Source of the DNA: an uncultured Actinomycetes bacterium
Lineage (GTDB): Bacteria; Actinomycetota; Acidimicrobiia; Acidimicrobiales; RAAP-2
Length of the DNA stretch: 36,156 nucleotides
Direction: 5' to 3'
Assembly: GCA_903870905.1 (NCBI GenBank)
Contig: CAIQEU010000019.1
Coordinates: forward strand, 1-36,156
This document shows positions 3 to 19,337 of this stretch, piece by piece. Numbering within the stretch: position 1 is the first letter of the stretch; each line of letters starts with the position of its first letter. The notes under the pieces were generated by a model. It made no database searches, had not been told where the DNA came from, and saw nothing but the letters and a program-made list of their open reading frames with translations. The position numbers were made by a program, and so were the translations under genes.

Positions 3-1217
3 GTGATTGGAGCAGGCTTTGGTGGCATTGCTGCCGCTCGAGCACTGCCCAGAGACGCCAACGTCACCATTGTCGACCAACACAACTACCAGACCTTCCT
101 TCCGCTGCTCTACCAAGTTGCCTCCTCGGGACTGGCAGCGGACCAAATCGCCTACCCGGTTCGCGGTGCGCTTCGAGGAACGAGTGCAAACTTTCGCCTC
201 GGCACTGCAGAGCATGTGGATGTGGCCAATCACGTGGTCAAACTCGCCGATGGCTCTTCCCTTCACTACGACCACTTGGTGCTCGCTGCTGGTTCAGTGT
301 CCAATGACTACGGGGTGACCGGGGTCAGTGAGTTTGCCTTTGGCATGAAGTCACTGAAAGAAGCCCTCACCATTCGAGCCACGTTCTTGCGCAGATTCGA
401 AGAGTTGGCTTCGGCCATTGACGATGGCCGCGAAGTCGTGCCCTTGTCGGCTGTGGTCATTGGTGGGGGCCCAACGGGAGTTGAGATGGCCGGTGCGCTG
501 GCCGAGCTCGCTGCTGGCCCCTTGGCCAAGGACCGCAGAGATGCAGCGTCGATGATCTCAGTTGAGTTGATTGAACTGGGCGACCGAATCCTTGCAACGT
601 TTGCCCCCGAACTGTCAGCCCGAGCAGCGAAGGACCTCGAGTCACTTGGGGTGCACATCCACCTCAACACGCCGGTCGAGTCCGTGAGCGAACGAGCGAT
701 TGGCGTGACCGGAGCTCCCTCGATTCCGGCGAACATGACCATCTGGGCTGCTGGGGTTCGCGGGGTTGACCTCGGCGCAGTCGGTGGAGCCGTTGGCGCC
801 AATGGTCGCCTTCGGGTTGATGCGACGCTCCGTATTGATGGAGCCGACAACATCTGGGTCATTGGCGACCTCTCTGGCGCCATTGGTCCAGGAGGTCGAC
901 CACTTCCAATGGTCGCACCCGTTGCCATCCAACAAGGCCGCTACGTCGCGCGCCAAATCACAGGACTCCAGCGTGGCGCAACTGTTGAGCCGTTCGTGTA
1001 CAAGGACAAGGGCTCGATGGCAACCATTGGTCGACACAAGGCCATTGTTGAGACCAAGCGCCTTCACTTTGGTGGATTTATGGCTTGGTTTGCTTGGCTT
1101 GGGTTGCACCTCGTCCAACTCATGGGTGGGAGGAACCGGATCGGCACCCTGGCTGACTGGTCGTGGAACTATCTGACCTTTGATCGCGGGAATCGCCACA
1201 TCATTGACGTGGAGTAG
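3..1217 (+). CDS. ndh: Type II NADH:quinone dehydrogenase (5' end cut by window)
   Basis: This is a single-subunit flavoenzyme that passes electrons from NADH to membrane quinone without pumping protons. The visible reading frame opens directly on the FAD-binding motif GAGFGG, which normally lies about 10 residues into the protein. The true start is therefore upstream of the window, and the GTG at position 3 is an internal valine. The second dinucleotide-binding motif (GGGPTG, around visible residue 154), the WAAGV segment and the late FAD-contact motif (IWVIGDLSG) are all present. The C-terminus has a hydrophobic amphipathic stretch (around MAWFAWLGLHL) of the kind that holds NDH-2 enzymes on the membrane. 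About 400 visible residues fit the family length. A short gene-free stretch separates it from a membrane transporter gene. The related alternative is another pyridine nucleotide-disulfide oxidoreductase, but the whole pattern favours NDH-2. Confidence 0.9.
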   Translation: MIGAGFGGIAAARALPRDANVTIVDQHNYQTFLPLLYQVASSGLAADQIAYPVRGALRGTSANFRLGTAEHVDVANHVVKLADGSSLHYDHLVLAAGSVSNDYGVTGVSEFAFGMKSLKEALTIRATFLRRFEELASAIDDGREVVPLSAVVIGGGPTGVEMAGALAELAAGPLAKDRRDAASMISVELIELGDRILATFAPELSARAAKDLESLGVHIHLNTPVESVSERAIGVTGAPSIPANMTIWAAGVRGVDLGAVGGAVGANGRLRVDATLRIDGADNIWVIGDLSGAIGPGGRPLPMVAPVAIQQGRYVARQITGLQRGATVEPFVYKDKGSMATIGRHKAIVETKRLHFGGFMAWFAWLGLHLVQLMGGRNRIGTLADWSWNYLTFDRGNRHIIDVE

Positions 1218-13369: not shown

Positions 13370-13836
13370 TGCTGAGCCCAGCAGAACTTCGGGCTGCGCA
13401 CGATCGATTCGTGGCCGTTGCTGGCGAGTGTGCCCGCACCCAGCAGTGGCGGGCATGGGCTGACCTCTTCAGCGACGACGCCACCTACGACGAGCACGTC
13501 TTCGGGCACTTCGAGGGTCCAGAGGAGATCTACCACTGGATCCAGCCCCTCATGTCGAGGTTCCCCAATTCAGAGATGCACGCCTTCCCGCATGAGTGGT
13601 GCGTCTTCGACGACGAGCGGAACTGGTCGATCTGTTGGATTCAGAATCGATTCGACGACCCGGGTGACGGGGTTCTCTACCAGGCACCCAACGTGACGGT
13701 GCTCCACTTCGGTCCCGATGGCAAGGTCACCCACGAAGAAGACGTCTACAACCCCATGACGTTCGCACCCATCGTGACAGCGTTCATGGAGGCCTACGCA
13801 GCCCATCACGGAAGCGAAGGGTCGAGCGATGCCTGA
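13369..13836 (+). CDS. SnoaL-like (NTF2-fold) protein
   Basis: The product (155 aa) has the length and pattern of SnoaL-like NTF2-fold proteins, a cone-shaped fold used by polyketide cyclases, ring hydroxylase beta subunits and small isomerases. Visible cues are the N-terminal helices (AAHDRFVAVAGECARTQQWRA), then WADLFSDDATYDEHVFGHFEG, a stretch found in many family members, and the strand-rich second half with FDDERNWSICWIQNRF. The start ATG overlaps the stop of the EthD-like gene by one base. Its end overlaps the redoxin gene by 8 bases. The three genes therefore form one tightly coupled operon. A ring-closing, isomerising or ligand-binding role is possible, but the substrate is unknown. 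Confidence 0.75.
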   Translation: MLSPAELRAAHDRFVAVAGECARTQQWRAWADLFSDDATYDEHVFGHFEGPEEIYHWIQPLMSRFPNSEMHAFPHEWCVFDDERNWSICWIQNRFDDPGDGVLYQAPNVTVLHFGPDGKVTHEEDVYNPMTFAPIVTAFMEAYAAHHGSEGSSDA

Positions 13837-14845
13837 GATCACCGTGCTCACGAGCGACGTCCACCTGGTCGAAGGGACGGTGAGCGAGTCCAGCGCCACG
13901 TTGCCGCTCGCCGACCTCGAGCGAGTCACGGGTTTCGTGCTCAAAGAGGTTGGGCTCTGCAGCGGCCCGACCTGCATTCCGCTGATGGGCCGAACGGTCG
14001 TGACCGACGAGGTCGTCGATCTCGTGGCACTGGCTGCAGTGCTCGGTCGGACGCTCGTCCTCGACGCAGATGCCGAGATGGTTGCCATGAGCGATGACGC
14101 GCAGCTGCGGTCACAGGTGCTCAACGACAAAGTGGCACCGGAGGTTGTGCTCCCTGACCTCGACGGCACGCTCCACGCACTCTCGGCGTCGCGTGGCAAG
14201 AAGACCCTCCTCGTGACCTTCGCGACGTGGTGCGGGTGCCGCTACGACCTTCCGGGTTGGCAGGCGCTCCTCGATGAACTCGGCGACGACAACCTCGCCA
14301 TCTACGCCGTCGCCGTCGACGAATTCCCCGAGAAGGTCCGGAAGTTCACCGGTGGGTTCGATGGGCCGGTGATGATCGACCGCCACCACGTGCTCTCTGA
14401 GGTCTACGCGATGAGCAACGTGCCAACGGTCGTGTGGATTGACGAAGAGGGCACCATTGCCCTGCCGAACTCCTTGGCCTTCGGCACCGACACCTTCGCC
14501 GAGTTCACCGGGGTCTCCTCAGGTCCACACTTGGACGCCGTTCGGGCCTGGGTGCGTACGGGCGCGGTCCCCGAGGCCGCCAACGAAGCCGTCGCCGACC
14601 TGTCGCTCGATGAGGTTGAGGCTCGGCTCCACTTCCGCATCGGCGCTGAGCTCGCCCGCCGAGGAGCAGCGGACTCGGCGAGAGCACACTTCGATGTGGC
14701 GTCAGCCTTGGCGCCCTACGACTGGACGGTCCGCCGTGCGGCGATGCCGCTGTCGGGCCGAGATCCTTTCGGTCAAGAATTCCTCGACCTCTACGACCAG
14801 TGGCAGAAGGACGGCGCCCCCTACCACGGAGTCACCGCGCTCTGA
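13829..14845 (+). CDS. Thioredoxin-fold protein with a CGC motif and C-terminal helical region
   Basis: The product (338 aa) contains a TlpA/AhpC-TSA-like thioredoxin domain from about residue 100 to 230: APEVVLPDLDGTLHAL, then TLLVTFATWCGCRYDLPGW, VAVDEFPEKVRKF and NVPTVVWIDEEG with the cis-proline. The active site reads W-C135-G-C137-R instead of the usual W-C-x-x-C, so one residue is missing between the cysteines. An N-terminal region has another pair, C44 and C49 (GLCSGPTCIP). The last 80 residues look like helical hairpins (RIGAELARRGAADSARAHFD), similar to a TPR-like repeat. There is no signal peptide or anchor, so it is likely cytoplasmic, unlike most TlpA/ResA proteins. The ATG at 13829 overlaps the SnoaL-like gene by 8 bases. 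It probably performs a thiol-redox step for its operon partners. Confidence 0.78.
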   Translation: MPEITVLTSDVHLVEGTVSESSATLPLADLERVTGFVLKEVGLCSGPTCIPLMGRTVVTDEVVDLVALAAVLGRTLVLDADAEMVAMSDDAQLRSQVLNDKVAPEVVLPDLDGTLHALSASRGKKTLLVTFATWCGCRYDLPGWQALLDELGDDNLAIYAVAVDEFPEKVRKFTGGFDGPVMIDRHHVLSEVYAMSNVPTVVWIDEEGTIALPNSLAFGTDTFAEFTGVSSGPHLDAVRAWVRTGAVPEAANEAVADLSLDEVEARLHFRIGAELARRGAADSARAHFDVASALAPYDWTVRRAAMPLSGRDPFGQEFLDLYDQWQKDGAPYHGVTAL

Positions 14846-16651: not shown

Positions 16652-16726
16652 GGCACCCTCAACTTTCCCCAATGAGGGTAGGGCAAATCCCCACGAATCA
16701 CTTGAATCTTCATCCTATCGGCGTAC

Positions 16727-16744
16727 GGTAAGGAACAGGTAAGG
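16727..16744. repeat. Direct repeat GGTAAGG x2, 11 bp apart, before the cytochrome b cassette
   Basis: GGTAAGG occurs at 16727-16733 and again at 16738-16744, one helical turn apart, in the 125-bp divergent region. A possible promoter (TTGAAT at 16702-16707, TACGGT at 16724-16729) overlaps the first copy. The pair could be an activator or repressor site, but no binding protein is known. Confidence 0.3.
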
Positions 16745-16776
16745 CGACGTCGTTGCCACCGAGAAGGAGGAGCGCA

Positions 16777-16977
16777 ATGCGTGGAATCTCCACCGCACCG
16801 TTTCGGTTGCATGCCCTCGTCAACTTGAACCACCCCAATCACTTCCTGCAGTGGGGATGGCTCTCGATCTCCCGATCGAACGCCATCGTCGTTGGCCTGA
16901 TGGTGGTGACGTTCATGGCAGCAGTTGCCATTCCGTTCCCCGGACACGGCGACGCAGATCAGGAAGAGGTTCGATGA
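16777..16977 (+). CDS. Small single-helix membrane protein of the cytochrome b cassette
   Basis: This 66-residue protein has a polar N-terminus rich in His and Asn (LHALVNLNHPNHFLQWGWLSIS) and one clear membrane helix (AIVVGLMVVTFMAAVAIPF), followed by a short acidic tail. The ATG at 16777 has an excellent ribosome binding site, AAGGAGGAG. Its stop overlaps the cytochrome b start (ATGA), so it is made with that protein and is probably a small subunit of the same complex. The HPNHF-WGW segment looks constrained rather than random. I have a vague memory of similar small proteins next to actinobacterial cytochrome b genes but cannot verify it. Its role, such as assembly or quinone-site shaping, is unknown. 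Confidence 0.7.
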   Translation: MRGISTAPFRLHALVNLNHPNHFLQWGWLSISRSNAIVVGLMVVTFMAAVAIPFPGHGDADQEEVR

Positions 16978-17600
16978 CGAGCACGCCGAACGCCACGAAC
17001 TGGACCGGAGCGCTCCGACGCAGCGCCGAGCGGGCGCTGCCACCCGAGAAGTTGCTCCCTGAATCCCAGCCGTCCTACGTCGCCTCGTGGATCTACGTCT
17101 TCGGCGCATTGACGATGGCAGCGCTCGGCATCATCATCGCCACCGGGTTCGTCCTCGCCATCATGGGGCCGACCTGGTGGCACCACTCGAGCACGGGCCA
17201 CTTCATCAACTCGATGCACCTGTGGTCGGTGGAGTTGTTCTTCGCCTTCATGGTGATCCACCTCTGGGGCAAGTTCTTCATGGCGGCGTGGCGAGGCAAT
17301 CGGGTCTTGACCTGGGCGAGTGGCGTGGTGACCTTCGTGATCTCGATCGCCACCGCGTTCACCGGTTACCTCTCTCAGACCAACTACGACTCGCAGTGGA
17401 TCGCTACGCAGGCCAAGGACGGCATCAACGCCACCGGTGGTGGAGCGCTCTTCAACGTCCTCAACTTCGGGCAGATGTTGATGTGGCACATCACCTTGCT
17501 GCCCCTCGGTGTCGGCATCCTCGTGGTGCTCCACGTGCTCCTCGTTCGACACCGGGGTGTCGTTCCTCCATTCGCCGAGACGAAGGATGGCGCCAAGTGA
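16974..17600 (+). CDS. Cytochrome b6-like diheme membrane subunit (N-terminal domain only)
   Basis: The product (208 aa) matches the four-helix, heme-binding half of cytochrome b. Two histidine pairs are visible: His82 and His96 (SMHLWSVELFFAFMVIHLW) in one helix and His172 and His187 (MWHITLLP to VVLHVLL) in another. The 14 and 15 residue spacings are those of the cytochrome b6 type, so two b hemes crossing the membrane are expected. A b6-like GYLSQTNYDSQW loop follows helix three. The ATG at 16974 is in an ATGA overlap with the small membrane protein, and the stop overlaps the next gene (GTGA). The protein would accept electrons from menaquinol or donate to it. No Rieske or cytochrome c1 gene is visible nearby, so the partner is unclear. 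Confidence 0.88.
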   Translation: MTSTPNATNWTGALRRSAERALPPEKLLPESQPSYVASWIYVFGALTMAALGIIIATGFVLAIMGPTWWHHSSTGHFINSMHLWSVELFFAFMVIHLWGKFFMAAWRGNRVLTWASGVVTFVISIATAFTGYLSQTNYDSQWIATQAKDGINATGGGALFNVLNFGQMLMWHITLLPLGVGILVVLHVLLVRHRGVVPPFAETKDGAK

Positions 17601-18556
17601 CCAAGGCCCCAAAGCGATTCAATCCCGACCGAGACGTCGCCCCGTGGACCGGACCAATGCGCCGCTACGACATCGCCAAGGAGGTCACCATCTGCTTCCT
17701 CGTGGTGGCCGTGCTCACCGTGGGGCTCGCCGTGGTGTTCTCCTCCCCTGACGACAAGGCCGTGACCCTCCAGCAGTGGGCGAGCGCAACGCCGGTTGAC
17801 TTCGCGACCACCGCAATTGCCGAACTCGATGGAACCTCGGGAACTGCTGGGTATGGCGGCCCCTACAACACCGCCAGTCCAGGCCAATCCATCCTCGGCG
17901 TCTCCCCGTCGACGATCATCGGCGTCCACATCCCCGTCGACGCCGCCAAGGACTTCGTGCTCTCGCCGGTTGCGGCGTTGCCCGATGATCCCCTGGCCCA
18001 ACAGGCACTGCGGAGCTACCGCAGCGCCACCTCAACCCAGCGCGCCACCTGGGACGCTGCCTACGAGACGGCGATTGCCAGCCAGGCGGCGTCGTATCGA
18101 GATGGACACCTCGTCGTGCCGTTGGGGAACTACGGACCTGTTGGCGTGATCGTCAACGCGCTCACCCAGATGGCGCGTTCGGGGGCGCTCGACGCCACGA
18201 TGCTCACCGAGCAACGGTTCTTCTCGACGGACTTCACGAAGCCGCTGCTGTTCCTCAGCGACGGGAACTACCTCGCCAACAAGGCGGCGATCGATCACCT
18301 CCAAGGTGACCAATGGGGAATGATGAACGAGACCGGCAGCTGGCCAGGTCAGGCGTGGCTCTGGCTCTACACCATGTGGTACCAAGTTCCTGGGCTGTCG
18401 ACGTCACCGAACGCTGACCTCCAGGTCTGGGCGATCATGATGGTGTTGACCGTGGTGCTCGCCTGTATTCCGCTCATTCCGGGTCTTCGCTCCATTCCGA
18501 GGTGGACGCGGGTCTACCGACTCATCTGGCGAGCGCACTACGCAGCGAAGCCCTAG
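17597..18556 (+). CDS. Cytochrome b-associated membrane protein with large extracytoplasmic domain
   Basis: The product (319 aa) begins with GTG in a GTGA overlap with the cytochrome b gene. It has a cytoplasmic N-terminus (PWTGPMRRYDIAKE), a first helix at about residues 29-48, then roughly 225 residues that are probably outside the membrane, and a last helix at about 277-296 followed by a basic tail. It sits where subunit IV or the C-terminal half of cytochrome b would be, yet lacks the PEWY quinol-site motif; the nearest tryptophan-rich stretch is WLWLYTMWYQVPG. The outer domain has conserved-looking segments (ELDGTSGTAGYGGPYN, GVHIPVDAAKDFVL, DQWGMMNETGSWPGQAW). There is no heme c motif (CXXCH) and no Rieske cluster motif. 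I recall similar actinobacterial proteins beside cytochrome b genes, but no established function. Confidence 0.75.
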   Translation: MTKAPKRFNPDRDVAPWTGPMRRYDIAKEVTICFLVVAVLTVGLAVVFSSPDDKAVTLQQWASATPVDFATTAIAELDGTSGTAGYGGPYNTASPGQSILGVSPSTIIGVHIPVDAAKDFVLSPVAALPDDPLAQQALRSYRSATSTQRATWDAAYETAIASQAASYRDGHLVVPLGNYGPVGVIVNALTQMARSGALDATMLTEQRFFSTDFTKPLLFLSDGNYLANKAAIDHLQGDQWGMMNETGSWPGQAWLWLYTMWYQVPGLSTSPNADLQVWAIMMVLTVVLACIPLIPGLRSIPRWTRVYRLIWRAHYAAKP

Positions 18557-18686: not shown

Positions 18687-19337
18687 ATGTTTGGACTGCA
18701 CAAGAAGACCGAGATGGTGACCGAAGCGGATGCGATGCCGGGTCGGACGACGCCGATTCTTCCGACTCGCCCGCACCTCGTGCTGGGCACGTCGATGATC
18801 CCACCGTTCGCTCACGGTCTCGAGGTGAGTTACGTGGCCATGGGCTGCTTCTGGGGTGCTGAGCGCGCCTTTTGGACGCTGCCAGGTGTCGTGACGACCG
18901 CAGTGGGGTACGCCGGCGGATTCACCGAGAACCCCACCTACGAAGAGGTCTGCTCCGGTCGAACGGGCCACGCTGAAGTCGTGCTCATTGTCAGCGACCC
19001 CTCGGCGATCTCCTACGCCACGTTGCTCTCGGCGTTCTTCGAGAACCACGATCCGACCCAAGGGATGCGGCAAGGGAACGACATTGGTACCCAGTACCGC
19101 TCGGCGATCTACGCCACGAGCGACGAGCAGTTGGCGATGGCGACCAAGGCCGCTGCAGCGTTCACCGATCGCCTCAGCTTTGCTGGGCTTTCGGCAGTGA
19201 CGACGGAGATCGCACCGGCGGGCACCTTCTACTACGCCGAGGACTACCACCAGCAGTACTTGGCTGCGAACCCCAATGGGTACTGCGGACTCGGTGGCAC
19301 TGGGGTGAGCTGTCCCATCGGCGTCTTCGCCGAGTAG
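18687..19337 (+). CDS. msrA: Peptide methionine sulfoxide reductase A
   Basis: The product (216 aa) repairs oxidised methionine by reducing the S-form of methionine sulfoxide in proteins. The catalytic motif GCFWGAE (Cys54) is intact, followed by the VGYAGG turn, GRTGHAEVV and [16 protein letters not shown]. The C-terminal cysteines needed for recycling by thioredoxin are visible in [14 protein letters not shown]. An N-terminal extension of about 40 residues before the catalytic domain matches the longer class of MsrA. The ATG at 18687 has AAGGAGG upstream (about 18673-18680). A thioredoxin-fold gene and two flavoenzymes are within 5 kb, so a general oxidative-stress theme is possible but not proved. 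Confidence 0.95.

Follow-up and report, generated by a model that had tools for sequence, protein, structure and literature searches.

In the 36,156-nucleotide contig CAIQEU010000019.1 of an uncultured Actinomycetes bacterium (hereafter the window), three overlapping genes form a cytochrome b cassette, named here P3-P1-P2 in gene order, which we read with somewhat better than even confidence as a separate menaquinol oxidoreductase of the cytochrome b6/subunit IV type that has no Rieske protein of its own and is tied to low oxygen in part of its family. In the mechanism that we propose, P1 would be a four-helix diheme cytochrome b, P3 a small one-helix subunit and P2 the split second half of a cytochrome b, in which the loop bearing the PEWY motif would have become an outer domain of ~215 residues while the motif degenerated. 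Such a complex would add to the normal QcrCAB complex without replacing it, and would exchange electrons between menaquinol or menaquinone and an extracytoplasmic partner docked on the P2 domain, with the two b hemes as its electron path and no dedicated Rieske protein. A DevR/OsdR-type box would place the cassette in a low-oxygen or dormancy programme in some members of the family, mainly those from Acidimicrobiales-type genomes. No published description of the cassette was found in literature searches, judged from their result listings. Its parts lie in the window as follows.

16777..16977, plus strand: P3, a small single-transmembrane subunit (66 amino acids, coordinates including the stop), an open reading frame with a GGAGG ribosome site
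16974..17600, plus strand: P1, a cytochrome b6-type diheme subunit (208 amino acids), identified by Pfam, a PDB profile and invariant histidines
17597..18556, plus strand: P2 (319 amino acids, GTG start), a subunit with two transmembrane helices that occupies the place of subunit IV and has an extracytoplasmic loop of ~215 residues
17663..17755, plus strand: helix E-like transmembrane stretch of P2 (residues 23-53), from hhalign
18305..18385, plus strand: P2 hallmark GxQWG[MV][MT]NE...PGQ[A/P/S/T]WLWLYTxWYQ (residues 237-263), where a PEWY-type motif is expected
16673..16776, plus strand: intergenic region between a divergent ABC-transporter gene and P3, with no DevR/OsdR-type box

P3 starts at the ATG at 16777, the genes share four-base overlaps (ATGA at 16974-16977 and GTGA at 17597-17600), and P2 ends with the TAG at 18554-18556. 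An initial annotation of the window had described a fully overlapping operon for a one-helix protein, a b6-type diheme subunit and a membrane protein with a large outer domain, and the starts, stops and overlaps are as it described them. A pattern scan of 84,980 species genomes, whose peptide patterns included DQWGMMNE, recovered 219 relatives of the cassette, and the cassette is therefore confirmed as a real gene set and not a chance arrangement; the best 80 loci were kept for counts. P1 and P2 are found in 80/80 of these loci (P1 partial in L042, L046 and L063, P2 up to residue 270 in L076) and P3 lies upstream of P1 in 77, the other three being cut by contig ends. Compared with two close relatives, all three genes are under purifying selection, with pN/pS ratios of 0.21-0.24 for P1, 0.28-0.29 for P2 and 0.49-0.52 for P3. 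Aligned sets of 52 P1, 54 P2 and 35 P3 sequences were used for residue counts; subsets were tried in turn until a proper alignment was obtained, and one in which P2 rows had been pulled into P1 columns was dropped.

P1 scores above the Pfam cut-offs of PF13631 (Cytochrom_B_N_2, 46.9 bits) and PF00033 (Cytochrome_B, 38.5 bits), and when its family profile is compared with the PDB, solved cytochrome b6 comes first (E 1.2e-14) and bc1-type cytochromes b next. Like the cytochrome b6 of b6f and split bc complexes, it is a four-helix diheme protein whose axial histidines (H82, H96, H172 and H187) stand in register with the b6 heme ligands, and these four are invariant in 52/52 sequences. The homology of P1 and its heme ligands together favour electron transfer across the membrane by way of two b hemes, which would be expected to span the membrane in P1. 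A fifth histidine, H70, is invariant among the split forms and is Q, by eye, in the fused form at L071. In cytochrome b6, a cysteine at the aligned position holds heme c_n. The main P1 family differs from b6 in having V or I at that place in 52/52 sequences, and a PQWY string present in 3/52 rows falls near residue 66, early in the chain and away from the place of the quinol-oxidation (Qo) site. The best NCBIfam match of P1 is ExtP (NF040969, E 1.1e-12), the b-type cytochrome of a selenite/tellurite reduction operon; the likeness ends at 48 bits, far below the cut-off of 290, and neither P2 nor P3 passes any NCBIfam or Pfam cut-off. Protein-mode searches of a plasmid collection with P1 and P2 gave no match.

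Two hydrophobic helices are predicted in 53/54 P2 relatives and one transmembrane helix in 34/35 P3 relatives. Lysine plus arginine reach 18.7 and 24.6 per 100 residues at the two ends of P2 and 4.5 in the ~215-residue loop, which therefore lies outside. This arrangement departs from that of subunit IV, which has three transmembrane helices. An AlphaFold2 model of P2 is mostly helical and fairly confident (mean pLDDT, the predicted local distance difference test, 82.1; pTM, the predicted template modelling score, 0.69). The P2 profile found nothing credible in the PDB, its one match at E 1.3 being taken as chance, and the best VIA match of the model had a Z of 3.1 over 53 residues. Compared by hhalign with a profile of 29 canonical cytochrome b C-terminal halves, which had been picked by their [PAG][EDPA]WY motifs, residues 23-51 of P2 match helix E (E 5.6e-4, probability 30%), while six unrelated control membrane families gave E 0.15 or worse against P2. 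P2 may therefore be related to subunit IV, being a separate gene for the second half with a helix E-like start.

The motif expected further along the chain is gone: PxWY, the PEWY-type Qo motif, occurs in 0/54 P2 sequences, and Q-[A/P/S/T]-W-L occupies the expected place. It forms part of the P2 hallmark, which in the window reads GDQWGMMNETGSWPGQAWLWLYTMWYQ and lies just before the second helix. GDQWGMMN is fully invariant in 81 scanned loci, in part an artefact of ascertainment, since DQWGMMNE was among the peptide patterns that fetched the 80 loci. In 30 loci obtained by a search without DNA patterns, of which L108 was unreadable by the hallmark pattern, QWG[MV][MT]NE together with PGQ[APS]WLWLY is present in 29/29 readable loci, with D in 14/29. 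The only near-invariant histidine of P2 is H234 (53/54), and no Cys or His pair able to hold a cofactor was seen in the 54 aligned sequences. A distant subfamily (G097 and G119), whose P1 is 33% identical to that of the window and which is 27-28% identical to the query made from the P1-P2 fusion, keeps DQWGM, carries GPWY at the position of the window family's Q-[A/P/S/T]-W-L and has a cysteine at the place of the b6 cysteine. With the register to [AP]PWY set by eye, this intermediate pattern suggests that the cassette may descend from a b6/subunit IV ancestor in which the Qo loop grew larger and its motif was eroded.

Natural fusions bind the three proteins together. P1 and P2 are joined in a single open frame in L071 and L073, and one frame covers the fusion query in 8 of 296 genomes of the class; P3 and P1 are fused in L045, and one of the eight fused class genomes, G276, encodes a P3-P1-P2 triple fusion (L126:8745-10631). 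The three kinds of fusion indicate that P1, P2 and P3 form one complex, in which P2 takes the position of the second half of a cytochrome b. The cassette is an old unit; the joining of the two halves is a further likeness to cytochrome b6 and subunit IV. A structural model of the P1-P2 fusion ranked cytochrome b and b6 first in Foldseek, weakly (E 0.06-0.34), and in VIA, where many unrelated long helices scored higher, it matched cytochrome b/b6 chains at Z 5.8-7.4. Hydrogenase-1 cytochrome b is also among the weak Foldseek matches of this poor model, and would fit a cytochrome b of the b561, hydrogenase or formate dehydrogenase type that anchors a periplasmic enzyme. We regard such an anchor as extremely improbable: profile searches with Pfam, NCBIfam and the PDB point to cytochrome b6/bc1, and no catalytic-subunit gene was recognised in the neighbour clusters of the 80 loci, not all of which were profile-scanned.

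Ordinary quinol bifurcation in the Q cycle needs a Rieske protein, a c-type heme and the PEWY motif. The cassette contains none of the three, in agreement with the initial annotation: the aligned P1, P2 and P3 sequences hold no CxxCH, CxxC or Rieske-like motif, and ordinary bifurcation is therefore impossible from the parts of the cassette alone. This sets it apart from b6f and split bc complexes, with their Rieske protein, cytochrome f or c and PEWY; the same scan gives no c-type cytochrome subunit among the three proteins, the neighbouring genes not having been scanned for CxxCH in all loci. The requirements of Q-cycle bifurcation are set out in part of PMC9162462.

The genome of the window's organism (2.1 Mb, 97.7% complete) answers the question of where the ordinary complex lies. 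On a contig other than that of the window it encodes a complete QcrC-QcrA-QcrB set, comprising a PDWY-bearing QcrB (634 bits to NF050120, cut-off 500), a Rieske protein QcrA with CTHLGC and CPCH, and a QcrC that at 196 bits falls just under its cut-off of 200, together with subunit I of an aa3-type oxidase that matches two NCBIfam models at E <= 2.4e-198 and stays below their cut-offs. A canonical cytochrome b exists beside the cassette in 30/33 cassette genomes, this one included, and in 8/8 genomes with a fused cassette, or 38/41 in total; the three with no such match are G002, G006 and G035 (91, 91 and 74% complete). The actinobacterial QcrCAB (bcc) complex thus contains a homologous cytochrome b in the same genomes, and differs from the cassette in that QcrB is one long PDWY-bearing chain that works with QcrA and QcrC. 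The initial annotation had offered two readings, a separate quinone-linked complex or missing parts that lie elsewhere, and the first was to be abandoned if Rieske and cytochrome c genes lay elsewhere with no other cytochrome b; since QcrB is present, the reading as a separate complex stands, its quinone link being suggested by homology.

Since the genome has a separate full QcrC-QcrA-QcrB set, a split version of the ordinary bc complex is not what the cassette encodes. P1 does belong to the true homologues of cytochrome b6, and the genome has five Rieske-domain matches, none of them on the window's contig, so that a Rieske protein and a cytochrome c borrowed from QcrCAB or from elsewhere might be imagined; against this stand the complete set with its own PDWY cytochrome b and a P2 that replaces the loop on which the Rieske head docks and has lost PEWY in 54/54 sequences, and we give the split form very little credence. 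Scarcely more probable, in our judgement, is a partnership with a separate membrane protein of the DoxX/DoxD type that would supply the Rieske function through its C-terminal domain. The window's own genome has one (C39:95555-96733, or L008:5556-6734), and Rieske-like strings occur in open frames of 3/80 loci, one of which is not Rieske-like and two of which are DoxD/DoxX-Rieske genes (L045:9214-10431 and L080:7660-8760). Across 61 relatives the DoxX part is present in 21/33 cassette genomes and in 4/28 without the cassette. Within the window's family the figures are 21/31 with and 3/6 without, so that the link is one of shared ancestry and the association vanishes; moreover, no such protein was seen in 12/33 cassette genomes, and in the window's genome and several relatives the gene lies on the QcrB contig. 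It may be a possible partner in some species and is not a general one. DoxX/DoxD-Rieske genes are widespread in the window's family and often lie on the QcrB contig.

The quinone chemistry of the cassette is inferred from homology, and P2 would act as a docking cap. The main rival is a quinone-pool device that needs no partner, in which the two hemes would carry electrons between quinones on opposite sides of the membrane, to poise the pool or draw on the proton motive force once oxygen is exhausted. The two membrane-spanning hemes expected in P1, the lack of any visible cofactor beyond the hemes and the box found in part of the family, which fits pool poising, all agree with such a device; a conserved outer domain of 215 residues would be left unexplained by it, and we hold it to be unlikely, if worth keeping in view.

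The tie to low oxygen comes from genes around the cassette and from the DNA upstream of it. In 16 loci outside Acidimicrobiales, a scan of 110 hand-picked neighbouring proteins found Usp proteins (6), response regulators (6), CBS proteins (3), nitroreductases (3), and two each of PPDK, ADH, PfkB and Pyridox_ox; 128 proteins had been listed, the 110 include 14 from L174/L175, and short or doubtful open reading frames, L020 and L045 were left out. Outside Acidimicrobiales, the neighbours of the cassette are thus often dormancy-type genes. In Streptomyces coelicolor, OsdR is the functional counterpart and orthologue of DevR (DosR), the dormancy regulator of mycobacteria, and the paper on it lists Usp, PPDK, nitroreductase, nitrate reductase and alcohol dehydrogenase in the OsdR regulon or region and does not name CBS there (PMC5069765). 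Because the neighbours outside Acidimicrobiales resemble these kinds of gene, the OsdR palindrome GGGMCNNNNGKCCC, fixed beforehand from that paper, was tested upstream of P3. The paper's main text has 0 occurrences of "cytochrome". In the Streptomyces sp. BK340 locus (L091:1148-4862), the cassette has genes for V/A-type ATP synthase subunits upstream of it.

Across 77 loci, whose counts are not independent events, 23 have a perfect box and 44 a box with no more than one mismatch; from shuffles and random windows, 0.5-1.1 and ~8-9 would be expected. When loci were restricted to the 55 with less than 80% P2 identity and to 150 bases upstream, 16 were perfect and 32 within one mismatch, against means of 0.27 and 4.1 for 78 control palindromes in the same loci; upstream of 338 other genes in these loci the box was perfect in 8 cases and within one mismatch in 19. 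A second set of loci, chosen without any DNA pattern (28 of 30 parsed, the window and L120 not), gave 13/28 within one mismatch and 4 perfect; the controls averaged 2.0 and 0.05 and reached 5 and 1 at most. The spacer of the box is T/A-rich, like the predicted OsdR site AGGGACCTTCGGCCCC. By lineage, 26/39 Acidimicrobiales-type loci have the box (control mean 2.2, one control 19), as do 2/3 Chloroflexi, and it is established for Acidimicrobiales-type genomes only. Elsewhere, single sites are suggestive: they are perfect in L066, L080 and G418 and carry one mismatch in Actinocrinis puniceicyclus (L081) and Streptomyces sp. BK340 (L091). Among 17 loci tested singly, 6 have a site with at most one mismatch within 350 bases, clearly above shuffles only in L066 and L080. 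The triple-fused cassette of G276 has a perfect box 145 bases upstream. In the same genome, a narGHJI-like nitrate reductase cluster, recognised by eye (L126:10645-16917), converges on this cassette.

Genome-wide, the strict 15-mer GGGACYTTYGGCCCT occurs 16 times in 9 genomes, against once for its reversed control. The richest genome, G027, has 8 strict sites, three of them ~5-12 kb from its cassette; one of its sites stands ~40 bases before a GNAT gene that is followed by a Usp gene and another ~320 bases before a CBS gene. In G418 a strict site lies ~100 bases before cydA-cydB, and in G014 one lies 350 bases from PPDK, with a divergently oriented pyruvate:ferredoxin oxidoreductase gene on its other side. 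Ten proteins from around the 16 sites, picked by eye, were profile-scanned. By analogy with the DevR (DosR)/OsdR regulon, with which the cassette shares the palindromic box in many Acidimicrobiales-type relatives and the companion gene types in other actinobacteria, a DevR/OsdR-type regulator would act on the box and induce the cassette at low oxygen.

The neighbourhood is different in one Acidimicrobiales lineage, in which ctaA-type, UbiA/CtaB-type and thioredoxin-like genes lie at the cassette and ctaG lies downstream (ctaA-type in 27 loci, directly upstream in 20; UbiA/CtaB-type in 26; thioredoxin-like in 24; CtaG in 13; one representative of each profile-scanned). These counts speak for a different role, in which the cassette would not be a quinol enzyme and would help to assemble or mature the heme-copper oxidase or its heme A. 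The ctaA-type neighbourhood looks like a single synteny block, though, and oxidase assembly is unlikely as a general explanation because the window's own ctaA is on a contig other than that of the cassette and a CtaA match is missing in 2/16 tested cassette genomes (G420 and G426); we consider the role improbable.

A number of results weigh against a low-oxygen menaquinol oxidoreductase, some touching its chemistry and others its regulation. P2 has no cofactor motif, so that a second electron acceptor is missing, and a Foldseek search with its model returned nothing at E <= 0.001. Against the subunit IV profile P2 matched in helix E only, at 30% probability, its C-terminal half staying unmatched, and the distant subfamily taken alone did not match helix E (E 0.12). 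The P1-P2 fusion model is poor (pLDDT 69.3, pTM 0.55), and the P2 domain could not be placed over a heme b. A DoxD/DoxX-Rieske gene does lie near the cassette in 2/80 loci, ~0.6 kb away in L080 and 2.2 kb away in L045, as a Rieske partner of that type would predict. The heme A and oxidase assembly neighbours fit aerobic respiration equally well. As to the dormancy-type neighbours, the tally consists of raw counts, and 3 of the 6 Usp proteins come from one locus.

The box, for its part, is absent from the window's cassette (none within 2 mismatches in the 300 bases upstream) and from the cassettes of its three nearest relatives (L012-L014), so that the low-oxygen link is supported in relatives and not in the window's organism, whose genus lacks the box. 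The box pattern is rarer in the window than chance would give (5 against 13.1), and the strict 15-mer is lacking in three genomes, the window's own among them. No box within one mismatch precedes the cassettes of G420, L128 or either cassette of G426, and G027, for all its strict sites, has none before its own. A near-identical control palindrome, GGGCMNNNNKGCCC, scores 4 perfect and 22 within one mismatch in the 55 loci, and in other Actinomycetota the box count (4/13) does not go beyond controls (mean 1.5, maximum 6). Usp, Hsp20 and pyridoxamine-oxidase-like genes lie near strict sites and not directly behind them, and some of the 16 sites are near genes of other or unrecognised kinds.

The 80 loci come mostly from Acidimicrobiaceae and unplaced actinobacterial metagenome-assembled genomes, with Streptomyces (S. 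sioyaensis, L079, is one case), Amycolatopsis, Actinoplanes, Actinocrinis, Pedococcus, Solirubrobacterales and some Chloroflexi among the other hosts; matches in metagenome-assembled genomes labelled Acidobacteria (L052, L067, L070 and L085) may be mis-binned. In a sample of the phylum, P2 was found in 10/396 genomes. A few genomes carry more than one copy. G310 has two P2 copies, at C8:7008-7919 and C17:16751-17668, the second match with one TAA inside. The 2.0 Mb phylum member G426 has two cassettes (L172 and L173), no CtaA match and one weak Rieske match, and a heavy-metal P-type ATPase gene, recognised by eye, comes immediately after one of its cassettes.

Other genes of the window include an msrA gene (TIGR00401, 207 bits) at 18687-19337 on the plus strand, downstream of the cassette and in the same direction; an msrA homologue is also found near the cassette in L012-L014 and L038. 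At 13829-14845 (plus strand) lies a gene for a ResA-like protein of the WAxxUGC family (NF041054, 191 bits, missing the cut-off of 300), whose motif reads by eye as WCGC, with cysteine instead of selenocysteine. The left end of the window (3-1217, plus strand) encodes a pyridine-nucleotide oxidoreductase with TIGR03169 as its best NCBIfam match, below cut-off, which may be a type II NADH dehydrogenase and hence a possible quinone-pool enzyme.

The usual view is that cytochromes b of the bc family function only together with a Rieske protein, and a widespread b6-type complex that lacks a Rieske gene in its set, has lost PEWY, kept both heme sites and acquired an outer domain offers a natural test of how far the Q-cycle machinery is dispensable. 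Going further, the cassette could represent a cytochrome b complex of a new class, whose outer domain would cap the quinol-oxidation site in place of the Rieske protein. It would provide a second, Rieske-independent menaquinol route for times without oxygen, as part of a dormancy programme of the DevR/OsdR type; we put this forward tentatively, as a possibility that we think has the odds against it. The cassette is also present in cultured kinds of actinobacteria such as Streptomyces, Amycolatopsis and Actinocrinis, and its link to the dormancy box touches on how non-growing actinobacteria may keep their membrane energised without oxygen.

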